A stretch of DNA of 52,844 nucleotides. Source: Spirochaetales bacterium (lineage in GTDB: Bacteria; Spirochaetota; Spirochaetia; Sphaerochaetales; Sphaerochaetaceae). The stretch's first letter is position 1. Each line of letters starts with the position of its first letter. The position numbers and the translations under genes are program-made. Location of the stretch: NCBI GenBank assembly GCA_022788185.1, contig JALEVV010000061.1, positions 1 through 52,844 on the forward strand, written 5' to 3'. The notes beneath the pieces are model-generated. The model was not told the DNA's origin and searched no databases. It saw only the letters and a program-made list of their open reading frames with translations. Below, piece by piece: positions 8,781 to 52,554 of the stretch.

Positions 8781-9993
8781 AAAGCATGACGGGTCAGAGG
8801 GCAATCCCTTCACCTCGCTCTCAGCTCTTAAGGAAATCGTAACCTCCCCGGGTGACACGATCCTGCTGGAGCGCGGCTCAGTGTTCAGGGGGGAATACAT
8901 CCATCTGAAAAACAGTGACGGCATCACGATAAAGCCCTACGGAAAGGGAAAGCGTCCCGTGATCAGGACCGACTCCGCGGGCATCTGGCATCAGGACTAC
9001 GGAACCCCCCTTGATTCCCCTGCCCACAGGTACAGGGCCGATGTCTCATCGTCAGTCCACCTTCAGGACTGCTCGGACATCAGGATAGAGGGTCTTGAGC
9101 TTACGAATACCGATGACGGTGATAAAAGTGAAGCCTTCAGAATGTGCCATACCGGCGTATCGGCCGTGGCCAGGGACAGGGGTGTGATGAGAAACATCAC
9201 GCTCTATGACCTGTACATACATGATATTAAGGGCAATGTTTACGACAAGCACCTCAACAACGGAGGAATTTACTTCACATGTTCCTCTCCGGAGAATGAG
9301 GCTTCGACCGGTCCCGCCCTCTTTGAGAACGTCACCATAGCCCGCTGCACGGTAACCGACACATCCCGTTGGGGGATTGCGATCGGATATACCTACGCCC
9401 ACAGGGCTTTCAGCGGAAAGGTATGTGACAGGGAGGCATTCAGGAAATACGCCCATAAAAACATAGTGATAGAGGACTGCTATGTGAAGCGTTCGGGAGG
9501 CGATGCCATCACGGTCATGTACGCCCTCTCACCCATTGTCAGGAGAAACCGCAGCGATGATGCGGCTACCGACATAAATGACCGCTTCTACCGCCATCCT
9601 GAAGGCAGGAGCGGCAAGGTTGCGGCAGGCATCTGGCCCTGGAAGTGCCTTGATGCGGAATTTACGGATAATGACGTATACTCGACCCGCCTCAACCAGG
9701 ACGGCATGGCATACGATGCCGACTCGGGGTGGAACACGGTATATGAACACAACAGGAGCACCCTCAACGAGGGCGGAGCAGTGATGTTCTGTCTGGAAGA
9801 GGCGATAGGCTCCGTATACAGGAACAATGTAAGCAGACACGACCTGGGAGGGATCTTCTCCCTGGCCTCAAACCCGGACGGAACCATATCCGGGAATTTG
9901 ATAATAAAGAAAAAAACGGTTCCTCTTCTCAGGAAGAGGATGGATGACGGAAAAGTCATGATGTATGATAACATCCTGACTGAAGAGGAGTGA
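8740..9993 (+). CDS. Right-handed parallel beta-helix protein (polysaccharide-lyase/epimerase-like)
   Basis: A 417-residue protein opening with the pattern seen in pectate-lyase-like beta-helices ('GNPFTSLSALKEIVTSPGDTILLERGSVFRG'). Repeated strand-turn units follow ('NITLYDLYIHDIKGN', 'ENVTIARCTVTDTSRWGIAIG', 'KNIVIEDCYVKRSGGDAI'). There is no signal peptide, so it should act in the cytosol on imported, already short saccharides, perhaps as a lyase, glycosidase or epimerase. The start ATG overlaps the preceding small gene by 41 nt and the stop is 3 nt before the GH112 gene. Exact reaction cannot be assigned. Confidence 0.75.
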   Translation: MSKQYHFSTVTVSEKHDGSEGNPFTSLSALKEIVTSPGDTILLERGSVFRGEYIHLKNSDGITIKPYGKGKRPVIRTDSAGIWHQDYGTPLDSPAHRYRADVSSSVHLQDCSDIRIEGLELTNTDDGDKSEAFRMCHTGVSAVARDRGVMRNITLYDLYIHDIKGNVYDKHLNNGGIYFTCSSPENEASTGPALFENVTIARCTVTDTSRWGIAIGYTYAHRAFSGKVCDREAFRKYAHKNIVIEDCYVKRSGGDAITVMYALSPIVRRNRSDDAATDINDRFYRHPEGRSGKVAAGIWPWKCLDAEFTDNDVYSTRLNQDGMAYDADSGWNTVYEHNRSTLNEGGAVMFCLEEAIGSVYRNNVSRHDLGGIFSLASNPDGTISGNLIIKKKTVPLLRKRMDDGKVMMYDNILTEEE

Positions 9994-46691: not shown

Positions 46692-48779
46692 TCAAACGTA
46701 GAACAGCATTTCACCGTATGTAGGATATGGCCAATCCTTCTGATCTACGATTAATTCAAGACTGTCTGCGAAGTCCCTCACAACGTCCATTGCGGGGATG
46801 ATCGCATTTCTGGAGTAGTGTGCCAGATCACTTCCTGTGTACTCTGCAGAGAGGGTAACAGTCTTCTCCAGCTCGGTCACTGCGCCTTCAAGCTTGTCAA
46901 TGAGGGCGGTAACCTCAGTGATGAGGGCTGACTCGCTCCTGCATTCAAGGGTCGGGATGACGCTCTTCTTTGCCGCGACGGAAGCTGCAACCTCACCTGC
47001 ATACTTCATGCATGCGGGCAGTACCTGTCTGTTGACCATGTCGATGAGGGTCATTGCCTCGATGTGGATGGTCTTGTAGTACTCCTCATTGAGGATCTCG
47101 TAGCGGGAGTGCATCTCAACGGAATTGAAGATTCCGAACTCACTGAAGAGCTCGATGTTCTTCGGGGCAATGAATGCATCATAGGCATCGGGAGAGCTCT
47201 TGAGGTTGAGGAGGCCTCTCTTCTCTGCTTCAGTCACCCACTCAGGAGCATAGTTGTTGCCGTTGAAGACGATTCTTCTATGCTCTGAATAGGTCTTTCT
47301 GACAAGTTCCGTTACCGCACTGTTGAAATCCTCGGCATCCTTGAGAACCTCGTAGAAGCCTCTGAGTTCCTTTGCGACAATTGTGTTGAGAACGATATTC
47401 GGACCAGCTACTGAGAATGAAGATCCGAGCATTCTGAACTCGAACTTGTTGCCTGTGAAAGCAAACGGGCTCGTTCTGTTTCTGTCTGTCGTATCCTTGG
47501 GGAATGCAGGCAGTACATGGACGCCGAGCTCCATCTGCACCTTGCCCTTTCCGTTCACGGCCTTTCCGCTTACGAGACCCTCGAGGATCTCGGTGAGCTC
47601 ATCACCCAGGAACATCGAAACGATTGCGGGAGGTGCTTCGTTGGCTCCGAGACGGTGATCGTTGCCTGCACTGGCTACGGACACCCTCATCAGATCCTGA
47701 TACTCATCGATGGCCTTGATGACTGCAACGAGGAAAAGAAGGAACTGAGCATTATCCTTAGGACTGTCACCCGGCTCAAGGAGGTTAATGCCGGTGTCAG
47801 TACTGATGGACCAGTTGTTATGCTTGCCGCTGCCGTTCACGCCTGCAAAGGGCTTCTCATGGAGAAGGCATGCAAATCCATGGCGGTCAGCGATCTTCTT
47901 CATCAGCTCCATTGTGAGCTGGTTGTGATCAACGGCGATGTTGGTGGTACCGAATACGGGAGCGAGCTCATGCTGACAGGGCGCAACCTCGTTGTGGCTT
48001 GTCTTTGCGTTGATGCCGAGCTTCCAGAGTTCCCTGTCCAGGTCCTTCATGTAAGCCGATACCCTGCTCCTGATGGCACCGAAGTAGTGATCCTCCATCT
48101 CCTGTCCCTTGGGGGAGCGGGCACCGAGAAGGGTCCTGCCTGTGTAGATGAGATCCTTTCTTCTGGCGTAATCCTTCTTGTCGATGAGGAAGTACTCCTG
48201 CTCGGGACCGACCGTGGTGGTAACCTTCTTTACATCGGTCTTGCCGAAGAGGTGAAGGAGCTTCACTGCCTCTTCACTGACTGCTTCCATTGATCTTAAA
48301 AGCGGTGTCTTCTTGTCTAGGACTTCACCTGAGTAGGAACAGAATGCGGTCGGGATACACAGTGTGTCATCCTTAATGAATGCATAGCTTGTCGGATCCC
48401 AGGCTGTATAACCGCGGGCTTCGAAGGTTGCCCTGATACCGCCTGAGGGGAAGGATGATGCATCAGGCTCACCCTTGATGAGTTCCTTACCGGAGAACTC
48501 AAGAAGGACCTTTCCTCCGTCAATGGGTGAAATGAAAGCCTCATGCTTCTCTGCCGTGATGCCTGTCATCGGCTGGAACCAGTGCGTATAGTGTGTGCAG
48601 CCCTTCTCTATTGCCCATGTTTTCATTGCATTGGCAACACTGTTGGCCACATTGAGATCAAGATCCTTGCCTTCCGCAACGGTCTTCTTCAGAGCTTTGT
48701 AGACATCCTTGGGGAGGCGCTCCCTCATTGTCTCATCGTTAAATACCAGACATCCGAAGTAATCAGCGACTGTTTCCAT
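46692..48779 (-). CDS. glnN: Glutamine synthetase, type III
   Basis: Makes glutamine from glutamate, ammonia and ATP. The 695-residue length is typical of GSIII (about 700). Diagnostic segments are '[21 protein letters not shown]' (about residues 78-98), '[11 protein letters not shown]' with metal-binding glutamates, '[18 protein letters not shown]', and '[13 protein letters not shown]' for the ATP/glutamate site. The ATG at 48779 is preceded by GGAAGGAG. A strong hairpin and T9 lie between promoter and start, so expression is probably controlled by attenuation; a terminator follows the gene. Confidence 0.95.
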
Positions 48780-48796: not shown

Positions 48797-48839
48797 AAAA
48801 AAAAAGGACGTTTTGGCCTGAGCCCTAACGTCCTTGTTA
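48797..48839 (-). promoter_or_regulatory. glnN leader: terminator overlapping a hexaloop hairpin (ANTAR-type candidate)
   Basis: On the minus strand AAGGACGTT (48835-48827) pairs with AACGTCCTT (48812-48804), followed by T9: a complete intrinsic terminator about 20 nt before the start codon. The competing hairpin TAAC-AAGGAC-GTTA (48839-48826) has a six-base loop with A at position 1 and G at position 4, and uses the bases of the terminator's 5' arm. A candidate promoter is AGTCAA/GTTTTA on the plus strand (48871-48876 and 48847-48852; minus-strand TTGACT-18-TAAAAC). Confidence 0.55.
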
Positions 48840-48994
48840 TGCATGTGTTTTACAAAAAATCCTTAAGTTTAGTCAACATAAATTTGAAAAAATTTCAGAA
48901 TTATTTTGTATAATCTTTTCATAAAAAGATTTAGATGCGCTAAAAGCGTTCAGCTCAGTCTAAGGATGCCCTATTTCGGAGAAAAAGTTAACCC

Positions 48995-49708
48995 TCAGCA
49001 GCCGATAAACGACAATATCCTCTCCTTTGAGGCCGTGAGAACGAGTTCCCGGGGAAAACACGCCTCCTCAAGCAGTGCGGCACACCTTTCCAGATGCCCG
49101 ACCTGTGATGGATCATGGGCATCCGAGGAAGTGATGACGTATACCCCCTTGGCCCTGCAGAGAGCTAGCATGGTACGGTAGTTCTCATGACAGCCGGGAC
49201 GGGACTCCGGCTCCCTTAAGGAGCTCTCATTCACTTCCAGTGCCACATGGTATTCAAGACATGCGTCCGTGAGGGCGTCGTAATCCAGCGGAATGAGGTT
49301 GCTGTCGGGATGGGAGACAAACGATACTTTCGGATGCTTCATGCATGAAATTAGGTTTTCGGTATTCTTTTTCCTACCCTGGTCATGGTAGCAGTTCAGG
49401 TGTATCCCCGCTATCGCGTAATCAAGGAGGGACATGAACCTGTCCTCGAGGGACAGCTTTCCGTCATCAAGGACGTTAACCTCACTTCCCAGAATCAGCT
49501 GAATCCCGCTGAGAGTGCGGGGGACTGCACTGAAATTGGCAAAGTAAAAGGGATGGCATGTTCCCGGAATTCCCGGTGCATGATCACTGATTCCCAGAAG
49601 CTCAAGTCCGGCCTCGGCTGCGGCTGAGGCCATTTCCCTTATCGTTCCGTAGGCATGTCCGCTTGCGATTGTATGTGTATGTATGTCCGCGACTAATGTC
49701 ATGTACAC
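48995..49708 (-). CDS. PHP-domain phosphatase (YcdX-like)
   Basis: A 237-residue metal-dependent phosphoesterase with the four PHP motifs: 'ADIHTHTIASGHAYGT' at the start, 'GISDHAPG', 'GSEVNVLDDG' and the terminal 'SSDAHDPSQVG'. Closest to the YcdX subgroup; the substrate is unknown, and histidinol phosphatase activity is possible but not supported by context. The ATG at 49702 is an equally good start. Confidence 0.88.
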   Translation of the reverse strand: MYMTLVADIHTHTIASGHAYGTIREMASAAAEAGLELLGISDHAPGIPGTCHPFYFANFSAVPRTLSGIQLILGSEVNVLDDGKLSLEDRFMSLLDYAIAGIHLNCYHDQGRKKNTENLISCMKHPKVSFVSHPDSNLIPLDYDALTDACLEYHVALEVNESSLREPESRPGCHENYRTMLALCRAKGVYVITSSDAHDPSQVGHLERCAALLEEACFPRELVLTASKERILSFIGC

Positions 49709-49813
49709 GATGATAGCACTTATCAGGCGCTATGCATAACATTGTTTTTTTATTCATTTTTTATGCATGAACCTATGGACAAAAAAATTTCGTTTTTTGT
49801 ATATTTGCCGTAA

Positions 49814-49925
49814 AGCAGAGGGGAAGGCTGCTGAATCCGGTCTCTCAATCTGCCCACTTCGTTAAGACAAAGGCGTCTTACAATGGATATCCCTCATGGG
49901 ATGTCTGTCGTAAGATGCCTTTTTT
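49814..49925 (+). promoter_or_regulatory. Glutamate synthase leader: mutually exclusive antiterminator and terminator
   Basis: A long terminator (AAGGCGTCTTAC at 49870-49881 with GTAAGATGCCTT at 49910-49921, an inner 8-bp stem, then six Ts) ends just before the ribosome site. A competing hairpin TAAGAC-AAAGGC-GTCTTA (49863-49880) has a hexaloop with A1 and G4 and shares the terminator's 5' arm. A further hairpin (49814-49818 with 49828-49832) lies upstream. The arrangement fits RNA targets of ANTAR antiterminators. Confidence 0.62.
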
Positions 49926-49942: not shown

Positions 49943-51046
49943 ATGGAGAGTTTTCAGAGAGAGGGTGACGTCAGGATACCTGCAGGCTGTGCGATATCAA
50001 GCATGTTCAGCAGAACGGGACGGAAATTCACCGGCGAGGGGATGATAAAGTCCATCAGCATCATGCATGACAGGTCAAACGGACTCGGCGGCGGTTTCGC
50101 AGGATACGGAATTTATCCCGAGTACAGGGACTTTTATGCATTCCACGTCTTTTATGACAGTGATGATGCAAGACACATCACGGAAGATTTCATCGATGAG
50201 CATTTCGACATCGTGAACCTTTCCAAGATACCTACCAAGAAGAACAAGAACATCACCGATGAGCCTCTTATCTGGAGATACTTCGTCACGCCCCTTCCCA
50301 CCAAGCTTGCCCAGAGTCAGCTTGAGGAGGATGAGTACACGGTACGCTGCGTGGTCAGGATCAACACTCACATAAACGGAGCCTATGTCTTCTCCTCAGG
50401 AAAGAACATGGGTATTTTCAAGGCCGTGGGTTATCCCGAGGACGTGGGCCGTTTCTACCGTGTTGATGAGTATGAAGGCTACGCCTGGACGGTACATGGC
50501 CGCTACCCGACCAACACTCCCGGCTGGTGGGGAGGCGCCCACCCCTTCGGACTTCTGGACTACTCCATCGTCCACAATGGCGAGATCTCATCGTACGATG
50601 CCAACAGGCGTGCGATCGAGATGTACGGCTACAGGTGCACGCTCCAGACCGATACCGAGGTAATCACATACATGATCGACTACCTGCACAGGAAGCAGAA
50701 GCTTTCCCTTGAGGAGTGCGCCCACGTCATCGCGGCTCCCTTCTGGACCACGATAGACCGCATGAGCGAGGACAAGAAGAAGGAGTACACCTACCTCAGG
50801 AACACCTTCTCCTCACTGCTCATCAACGGGCCGTTCTCGATCATCCTGGGCTTCCGCGGCGGGCTCATGGCACTCAATGACAGACTGAAGCTCAGGTCCC
50901 TGGTCGCTGCCGAGAAGGGTGACATGGTCTACTTCTCCTCAGAGGAGAGCGCGATCAAGATCATCGAACCGTCACCGGACAGGATCTGGTATCCGAAGGG
51001 CGGTGAACCCGCCATCGTTACCCTCAATGAGGGAGTGGAGGCATAA
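49943..51046 (+). CDS. Glutamate synthase, glutaminase (class II amidotransferase) subunit
   Basis: The 367-residue product supplies ammonia from glutamine. The nucleophile is probably Cys16 in 'IPAGCAISSMFSRTG', to be exposed by propeptide removal; 'VHGRYPTNTPGWWGGAHPF' and 'IVHNGEISSYDANR' are further class II motifs. The start at 49943 is set by AGGAGG 6 nt upstream; an upstream in-frame ATG (49883) would lie inside the leader terminator and is rejected. It is the first gene of a three- or more-gene, archaeal-type split glutamate synthase operon; the next gene starts 2 nt after its stop. Confidence 0.9.
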   Translation: MESFQREGDVRIPAGCAISSMFSRTGRKFTGEGMIKSISIMHDRSNGLGGGFAGYGIYPEYRDFYAFHVFYDSDDARHITEDFIDEHFDIVNLSKIPTKKNKNITDEPLIWRYFVTPLPTKLAQSQLEEDEYTVRCVVRINTHINGAYVFSSGKNMGIFKAVGYPEDVGRFYRVDEYEGYAWTVHGRYPTNTPGWWGGAHPFGLLDYSIVHNGEISSYDANRRAIEMYGYRCTLQTDTEVITYMIDYLHRKQKLSLEECAHVIAAPFWTTIDRMSEDKKKEYTYLRNTFSSLLINGPFSIILGFRGGLMALNDRLKLRSLVAAEKGDMVYFSSEESAIKIIEPSPDRIWYPKGGEPAIVTLNEGVEA

Positions 51047-51048
51047 GC

Positions 51049-52554
51049 ATGGCTATCAACTACATATATCCCGAATACGAGGTGGTAAGGAATTACGACC
51101 GCTGTATCTCCTGCCGTGTCTGTGAGAGGCAGTGCGCCAACCTGGTCCACCACTACGATGCAAAACGTGAGAAGATGATGAGCGACGAGTCAAAGTGCGT
51201 CGCCTGCCACCGCTGCGTTGCACTCTGTCCGACCCGTGCGCTGAAGATCGTCAAGAGCGACCACACCTTCAAGGAAAATGCCAACTGGACGGGAGAGAAG
51301 ATTACGAACATCTACCGTCAGGCGGAATCCGGCGGCGTACTGCTTGCCAGCATGGGAACTCCCAAGGACTACCCTGTTTACTGGGATAAGATCCTCATCA
51401 ACGCAAGCCAGGTCACGAACCCTTCTATCGACCCTCTCAGGGAGCCTATGGAAACAAAGGTCTTCCTCGGACACAAGAGCGAGCAGATCGTCAGAGACAA
51501 ATACGGCCGCATCAAGAGCGAGTCAACGCCCCAGCTGGAGCTCCAGGTTCCCATCATGTTCTCCGCGATGAGCTACGGCTCCATAAGCTACAACGCCCAT
51601 AAGTCCCTGGCACTGGCCTCAAAGAAGCTCGGTATCTTCTACAACACCGGTGAAGGCGGCCTGCACGAGGACTTTTACGAGTACGGTACAAACACCATCG
51701 TACAGGTGGCATCGGGACGTTTCGGCGTTCACCCCGACTATCTCAAGGCAGGTGCAGCCCTTGAGATCAAGATGGGACAGGGTGCAAAGCCCGGTATCGG
51801 CGGACACCTTCCCGGCGCCAAGATCGTCGGCGATGTATCCAGGACAAGGATGATACCGGAAGGCAGTGATGCCATCTCCCCTGCCCCGCACCATGACATT
51901 TACTCGATTGAGGATCTTAGACAGCTCGTTTACACGCTGAAGGAGGCTACAAACTACACAAAACCGGTCATCGTTAAGATCGCGGCTGTCCACAATGTCT
52001 CGGCGATTGCTTCAGGCGTTGCAAGATCGGGTGCCGACATAATTGCCATAGACGGCTTCAGAGGCGGCACGGGTGCCGCTCCCGCAGCCATCCGCGACAA
52101 CGTCGGTATCCCGATCGAGCTGGCCCTCGCCTCCGTTGACAAGAGACTGAGGGATGAGGGAATCAGGAACAACATCTCCCTCGTGGTCGGAGGCTCGATA
52201 AGATGCTCGGCGGATATCGTCAAGGCCATCGCCCTCGGTGCCGATGCCGTCTACATTGCGACAAGCGCACTGGTCGCACTGGGCTGTCACCTCTGCCGCA
52301 CCTGTCACTCAGGCCGCTGCAACTGGGGTATCGCAACTCAGAGGCCCGATCTCGTCAAGAGACTCAACCCCGAGATCGGTTCCGAGAAGCTCGTCAACCT
52401 CATCCATGCATGGCAGCATGAGATCAAGGAGATGATGGGCGGAATGGGAATCAACAGCATTGAGGCGCTCAAGGGTAACAGGGCGATGCTCCGCGGTATC
52501 GGACTTACCCGGGAGGAGCTGGATATCTTAGGCATTAAGCATGCGGGAGAATGA
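51049..52554 (+). CDS. Glutamate synthase, ferredoxin-FMN catalytic subunit
   Basis: A 501-residue protein with two 4Fe-4S motifs at the N terminus ('CISCRVCERQC', 'CVACHRCVALCP', about residues 20-65), the FMN-binding synthase barrel (about 155-450; 'MSYGSISYNAHKSLALAS', 'GQGAKPGIGGHLPG', 'DGFRGGTGAAP') and the 3Fe-4S cysteines 'GCHLCRTCHSGRC' near residue 410. It forms glutamate from 2-oxoglutarate and ammonia. It overlaps the next gene by 4 nt. Confidence 0.94.
   Translation: MAINYIYPEYEVVRNYDRCISCRVCERQCANLVHHYDAKREKMMSDESKCVACHRCVALCPTRALKIVKSDHTFKENANWTGEKITNIYRQAESGGVLLASMGTPKDYPVYWDKILINASQVTNPSIDPLREPMETKVFLGHKSEQIVRDKYGRIKSESTPQLELQVPIMFSAMSYGSISYNAHKSLALASKKLGIFYNTGEGGLHEDFYEYGTNTIVQVASGRFGVHPDYLKAGAALEIKMGQGAKPGIGGHLPGAKIVGDVSRTRMIPEGSDAISPAPHHDIYSIEDLRQLVYTLKEATNYTKPVIVKIAAVHNVSAIASGVARSGADIIAIDGFRGGTGAAPAAIRDNVGIPIELALASVDKRLRDEGIRNNISLVVGGSIRCSADIVKAIALGADAVYIATSALVALGCHLCRTCHSGRCNWGIATQRPDLVKRLNPEIGSEKLVNLIHAWQHEIKEMMGGMGINSIEALKGNRAMLRGIGLTREELDILGIKHAGE

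Follow-up and report, generated by a model that had tools for sequence, protein, structure and literature searches.

The closest described systems are the attenuators worked by ANTAR proteins, an RNA-binding family. Their target is defined by two hexaloops, and genes for glutamate and glutamine synthases are among those targeted (Ramesh et al. 2012, PMC3369931). In E. faecalis, deletion of the first hairpin, P1, abolished induction, and both hexaloops were needed for antitermination (PMC3369931). An ANTAR dimer binds a single hexaloop as its minimal site, with Tyr164 of EutV stacking on G4 (Walshe et al. 2022, PMC8934654); the same authors nevertheless conclude that antitermination requires both loops, each contacted by the dimer in turn, and they urge that single hexaloops be studied. 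Further, NitR/ANTAR control of the GS/GOGAT cluster in Clostridium saccharobutylicum, with antitermination on nitrogen limitation, was described by Stutz et al. (2007) as summarized in PMC6316151 and PMC4676874. In the accepted model the ANTAR dimer must visit two hexaloops to overcome a terminator, whereas the conserved leaders described below apparently manage with one.

The window (the whole 52,844-nt stretch of spirochaete DNA that was analyzed) contains such a leader upstream of glnN (Table 1). Like the dual-hexaloop leaders of the EutV/eutP, NasR/nasF, and AmiR/amiE systems, it has an A1/G4 hexaloop that shares its loop and 3′ arm with the terminator, an ANTAR gene is present in the genome, and nitrogen genes lie downstream of leaders of this design, glutamate and glutamine synthases included; unlike them, it has one hexaloop at the RNA 5′ end, with neither a P1 nor a linker. 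It resembles the single site of Walshe et al. in offering one G4 hexaloop as a putative site for an ANTAR dimer, but single sites were expected there in the absence of a polymerase time limit, whereas here they overlap terminators directly behind the promoter. As with NitR of C. saccharobutylicum, an ANTAR protein is linked to GS/GOGAT genes; the present genome, in contrast, is of the spirochaete type and combines a split glutamate synthase with a type III glutamine synthetase. Given that the loop and terminator agree with the known ANTAR leaders while the dual hairpin is missing, we regard the glnN leader as a variant that would work like them rather than as a dual-hexaloop member. Specifically, we consider it likely to be a single-hexaloop variant of ANTAR antitermination, proximal to the transcription start, belonging to a glutamine/ammonium regulon and worked by the only ANTAR protein of the genome.

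Table 1. Positions of the glnN and glt leaders, their genes, and the ANTAR gene (window coordinates unless a locus is named).
Feature	Position	Strand	Basis or remark
glnN promoter, -35 TTGACT	48876-48871	-	Sequence; conservation
glnN promoter, -10 TAAAAC	48852-48847	-	Conservation; 7 nt 5′ of the hairpin
Hexaloop hairpin (P2-like) TAAC(AAGGAC)GTTA, loop A1 and G4	48839-48826	-	Sequence; covariation
Intrinsic terminator stem, glnN leader	48835-48804	-	Folding; covariation over aligned leaders
T9 tract, glnN terminator	48805-48797	-	Sequence
GGAAGGAG, between glnN terminator and ATG	48794-48787	-	Sequence
glnN (predicted target gene), 695-aa type III glutamine synthetase	46692-48779	-	Pfam GSIII_N and Gln-synt_C; ATG at 48779
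PHP-domain gene between the glnN and glt leaders	48995-49708	-	Neighbor, outside the conserved design
Extra conserved 5′ structure, glt leader	49805-49862	+	
Hexaloop hairpin TAAGAC(AAAGGC)GTCTTA, glt leader	49863-49880	+	
glt leader terminator	49869-49922	+	Overlaps the hexaloop
glt operon start	49943-52554	+	
Amidotransferase subunit gene, glt operon	49943-51046	+	
FMN/glutamate synthase subunit gene, glt operon	51049-52554	+	
ANTAR protein gene, 192 aa	L002:3256-3834		

The A1/G4 hexaloop, the use of its loop and 3′ arm as the 5′ arm of a terminator (AAGGACGTT...AACGTCCTT), and the T9 tract, as described in the initial annotation, are read directly from the minus strand. Because the hairpin gives up its loop and 3′ arm to the terminator, the two structures are mutually exclusive. 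In folding calculations the full leader RNA adopts the terminator at -18.5 kcal/mol (z = -4.9, with none of 200 shuffles equally good), and its 5′ part alone, comprising the first 24 to 34 nt, adopts the hexaloop at about -2 kcal/mol. Only about 22 nt separate the 3′ end of the hairpin from the end of the terminator stem, and this short kinetic window is a point against antitermination by a single hexaloop.

The glnN promoter, with a spacer of 18 nt, is predicted to start the RNA at about 48839 to 48841, within some 2 nt of the hairpin, so that no first hairpin could be transcribed from it. A generic promoter/terminator scan missed the leader, since it limited loops to 8 nt and demanded a T at the last position of the -10; the promoter claim accordingly rests on conservation. 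The TTGACT is kept in the window genome (G000), G005, and G010 while the DNA further upstream is unrelated; conservation in G005 and G010 extends over the -10 region and almost all of the stretch between it and the hairpin. The -10 reads TACAAC in G005, G010, and G017, and TTGACA stands as the -35 equivalent in G017 and G019. The TAAAAC of the window genome is weak and off consensus, which counts against our preferred reading. The promoters of related leaders are often a perfect TTGACA-17-TATAAT, and the -10 of the best promoter ends 5 to 14 nt before a 4-bp stem in 80 of 112 nonredundant motifs, suggesting that transcription of most leaders begins right at the hairpin or just a few nucleotides ahead of it.

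These observations bear on the strongest of the alternatives, namely, that glnN has an ordinary dual-hexaloop ANTAR target whose degenerate first hairpin lies upstream in a longer transcript (e.g., read-through from the PHP gene) and was missed. Two hexaloops are present in all experimentally tested ANTAR attenuators, and this requirement (PMC3369931, PMC8934654), set beside the one hexaloop seen here, counts against a single-hexaloop mechanism; the glt leader of the window's clade, moreover, carries additional conserved structure 5′ to its hexaloop. We nevertheless consider this explanation improbable. The 110 nt preceding the glnN hairpin contain no A1/G4 hexaloop, nor does the leader have two tandem hexaloops with a linker of about 5 to 12 nt; among 112 related leaders, 2 have a P1-like upstream hairpin where 3.4 are expected, i.e., chance level; and the position of P1 is occupied by consensus promoters. 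The proposal made tentatively in the initial annotation, a single-hairpin variant whose promoter starts the RNA right at the hairpin, is supported by these results, which point to a single-hexaloop/terminator leader placed directly after a predicted sigma70 promoter and conserved in spirochaetes and Clostridia.

A census of the 52.8-kb window for A1/G4 hexaloop/terminator overlaps returned three, the glnN leader, the glt leader, and one weak intragenic match, and recovered the matching pair noted initially; in both leaders the terminator arm begins within the loop, as had been stated. The glt leader of the window's clade additionally has the above-mentioned 5′ structure, formed by AGCAGAGGGGAAGGCTGCT and a CTCTCTCTG-type partner in the promoter-to-hexaloop interval; it recurs at the corresponding position of L050 and L064 and is not an A1/G4 hexaloop. 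More broadly, the design recurs in spirochaetes and Clostridia, in most cases with a single hexaloop in divergently oriented leaders of glt and glutamine synthetase genes, and at many loci two leaders face each other, that of glt with GAAC/GGAC arms and that of the glutamine synthetase gene with CAGC arms. In G017 and G019, which belong to other genera of the family, a hairpin is found at the same place before glnN, CAGC(AAAGGC)GCTG in G017 and CAGC(AATGGC)GCTG in G019. Counting against our reading, in other species of the genus, such as G001 and G012, the orthologous GSIII gene is without the leader, and the leader occurs at other loci. Rfam searches at both gathering and permissive thresholds returned nothing relevant: there was no match above the gathering score in the window, and three related glt loci gave a tRNA only.

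Related loci totaling 1.52 Mb contain 137 hexaloop/terminator overlaps (hexaloop stem of at least 4 bp), of which 110 are A1/G4, against 2 A1/G4 overlaps in total in three dinucleotide shuffles (about 0.7 per shuffle). In a test with the same stem length that chose sites by their terminator, whether or not a hairpin was present, an A1/G4 hexaloop lies at the 5′ arm of 41 of 46 gltB1 leader terminators versus 18 of 478 terminators elsewhere in these loci (p = 4e-41), which upholds the earlier argument that matching designs are unlikely to arise by chance. As 32 of 78 gltB1 leaders have no terminator at the threshold used, the design is common there rather than universal.

The same comparison weighs on a second alternative, which we consider very unlikely: that the element is a fixed attenuator or a plain terminator, serving the PHP gene or setting basal expression, and that its hexaloop is a by-product of the AAAGG with which terminators often begin. 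A-rich G/C stretches do often open terminator arms and would provide A1 and G4 at no cost, and the glnN terminator lies downstream of the codirectional PHP gene. A terminator, however, has no need of the complementary 5′ hairpin arm, which is rare at other terminators (the above 18 of 478) yet is kept and covaries in these leaders. In an alignment of 40 leaders, this arm covaries with the 3′ arm in 51 double-change cells, a value reached in none of 500 shuffles and far above the slid controls, and the 3′ arm of the terminator also follows the changes; as the alignment was picked by a detector that demands pairing, it is informative only as to variation among pair types. Further, a terminator for the PHP gene alone, a possibility raised in the initial annotation, conflicts with the arrangement in G017 and G019, in which this leader also precedes glnN but the next gene upstream is the divergent gltB1, with no PHP gene between them and no codirectional gene directly upstream; the association of the leader with ANTAR genes (see below) also argues against the second alternative. 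Least probable of all is that the inverted repeat acts as DNA rather than RNA, as the operator of a nitrogen-responsive DNA-binding protein, for although a short interrupted palindrome at +1 is in a usual position of a repressor site, the arms vary freely with pairing kept, conservation of the loop is confined to one strand (A1 and G4; mostly AAAGGC or AAGGAC), an overlap with a terminator would be needless, and the element tracks an RNA-binding protein family.

We used a covariance model of the hairpin and terminator (R1) for a genome-wide census. The glnN leader belongs to its training set and is matched at E = 6e-6 by construction, whereas the glt, asnB, and ATP-grasp leaders of the window genome lie outside that set; the glt leader was matched at E = 0.05. 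The genome-wide comparison of leaders that the initial annotation had called for found two more in the window genome, those of the asparagine synthetase gene asnB (contig C27) and of an operon coding for a circularly permuted ATP-grasp protein and an alpha-E protein (contig C15). In relatives and Clostridia, matches precede genes for GSIII, glnA, gltB1, pyrG, asnB, amt-PII, carA, gdhA, and asnA, as well as a Bmp/PnrA-type transporter and a class I glutamine amidotransferase reading as guaA; those before pyrG, amt-PII, carA, guaA, gdhA, and asnA, too, include leaders on which R1 had not been trained. The leader of the ATP-grasp/alpha-E/transglutaminase-like operon (G000:C15:7143-7196; L176 544-597) has a single hexaloop, and a homologous ATP-grasp gene in L200 is preceded by a similar leader, suggesting a nitrogen-related role for these genes.

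Matches to R1 were found in all 16 relatives with an ANTAR gene and in 3 of 25 relatives without one (p = 9e-9), where an ANTAR gene not found in an incomplete genome is no proof of its absence; one of the three exceptions is a genome that is 86% complete and holds glt and glnN loci, and the other two are marginal. Among the 197 genomes of the phylum, 14 of 20 with an ANTAR gene have matches versus 2 of 177 without one (p = 5e-15); the six ANTAR-positive genomes that have no match under strict filters count against the preferred reading. The assignment to the ANTAR type made at the outset is borne out by this tracking and by the presence of an ANTAR gene in the glt-glnA operon. The window genome has one ANTAR gene above the Pfam cutoff, situated on a different contig between glnA, which it directly follows, and pyrG. 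Sequence overlap did not join the two contigs, and the operon order glt-glnA-ANTAR-pyrG rests on G005, where gltB1, gltB2, an oxidoreductase gene, gltB3, glnA, the ANTAR gene, and pyrG are contiguous and glnN is divergent.

The structure predicted for the ANTAR protein from 13 relatives (pLDDT 93.6) consists of a receiver, a long coiled coil, and C-terminal ANTAR helices. Among PDB structures, the model matches RNA-bound EutV best (TM 0.78); Rv1626, RNA-free EutV, and AmiR come next, in that order. The residue aligned with Tyr164 of EutV is a His, as in AmiR. In the alignment, the protein of the window genome has N (LVVNSPLLDD) at the position of the phospho-accepting Asp expected of a phosphorylation-activated response regulator of the EutV type, and the relatives have N, E, or Q in most cases and D in a few (alignment A4). 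This replacement suggests that phosphorylation is probably not the signal.

On the basis of these observations, the following mechanism is likely for the glnN leader. Transcription would start at the hairpin, and without an active ANTAR protein the nascent RNA would fold into the terminator and stop after about 45 nt. An active ANTAR dimer would bind the single 5′-terminal A1/G4 hexaloop as the hairpin leaves the polymerase and keep its loop and 3′ arm from the terminator, so that the polymerase would continue into glnN. The dimer would probably be active in nitrogen limitation; this sign of regulation, with read-through under nitrogen shortage, is inferred from which genes are targeted and from the Clostridium NitR precedent (PMC6316151). 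The glnN leader would be one of the single-hexaloop leaders of a regulon that, in the window genome, comprises glt, glnN, asnB, and the ATP-grasp operon. We lean, by a narrower measure, toward a wider generalization: a widespread class of ANTAR attenuators that need no more than one hexaloop, located at the very 5′ end of the RNA, and are worked by an ANTAR protein with a mostly nonphosphorylatable receiver. Nitrogen would then be sensed by another route (perhaps via a ligand or the neighboring glutamine synthetase), and the enzymes that use glutamine and ammonium would form one regulon. Stutz et al. (2007) may have described leaders of the same type, which would lower the novelty of the present ones without affecting the mechanism.

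The distance from start to release is roughly 45 to 80 nt in these leaders, so that short synthetic templates could test the single-hexaloop question. The gene set outlines a nitrogen regulon for spirochaetes and many Clostridia, spanning GS, GOGAT, glutamine amidotransferases, and ammonium uptake, with a receiver-like protein as its putative regulator.

Two further arrangements were observed. Two hexaloop-terminators occur in series before the type III glutamine synthetase gene in L062 (-), L063 (-), and L130 (-, at 9751 and 9667). In Clostridia, a further hexaloop-terminator with no promoter at the usual distance lies about 2.2 kb into the divergent operon (L072 6057-, L078 7417-, L100 7060-, L103 7345-, and L113 7441-) and is perhaps an internal attenuator.
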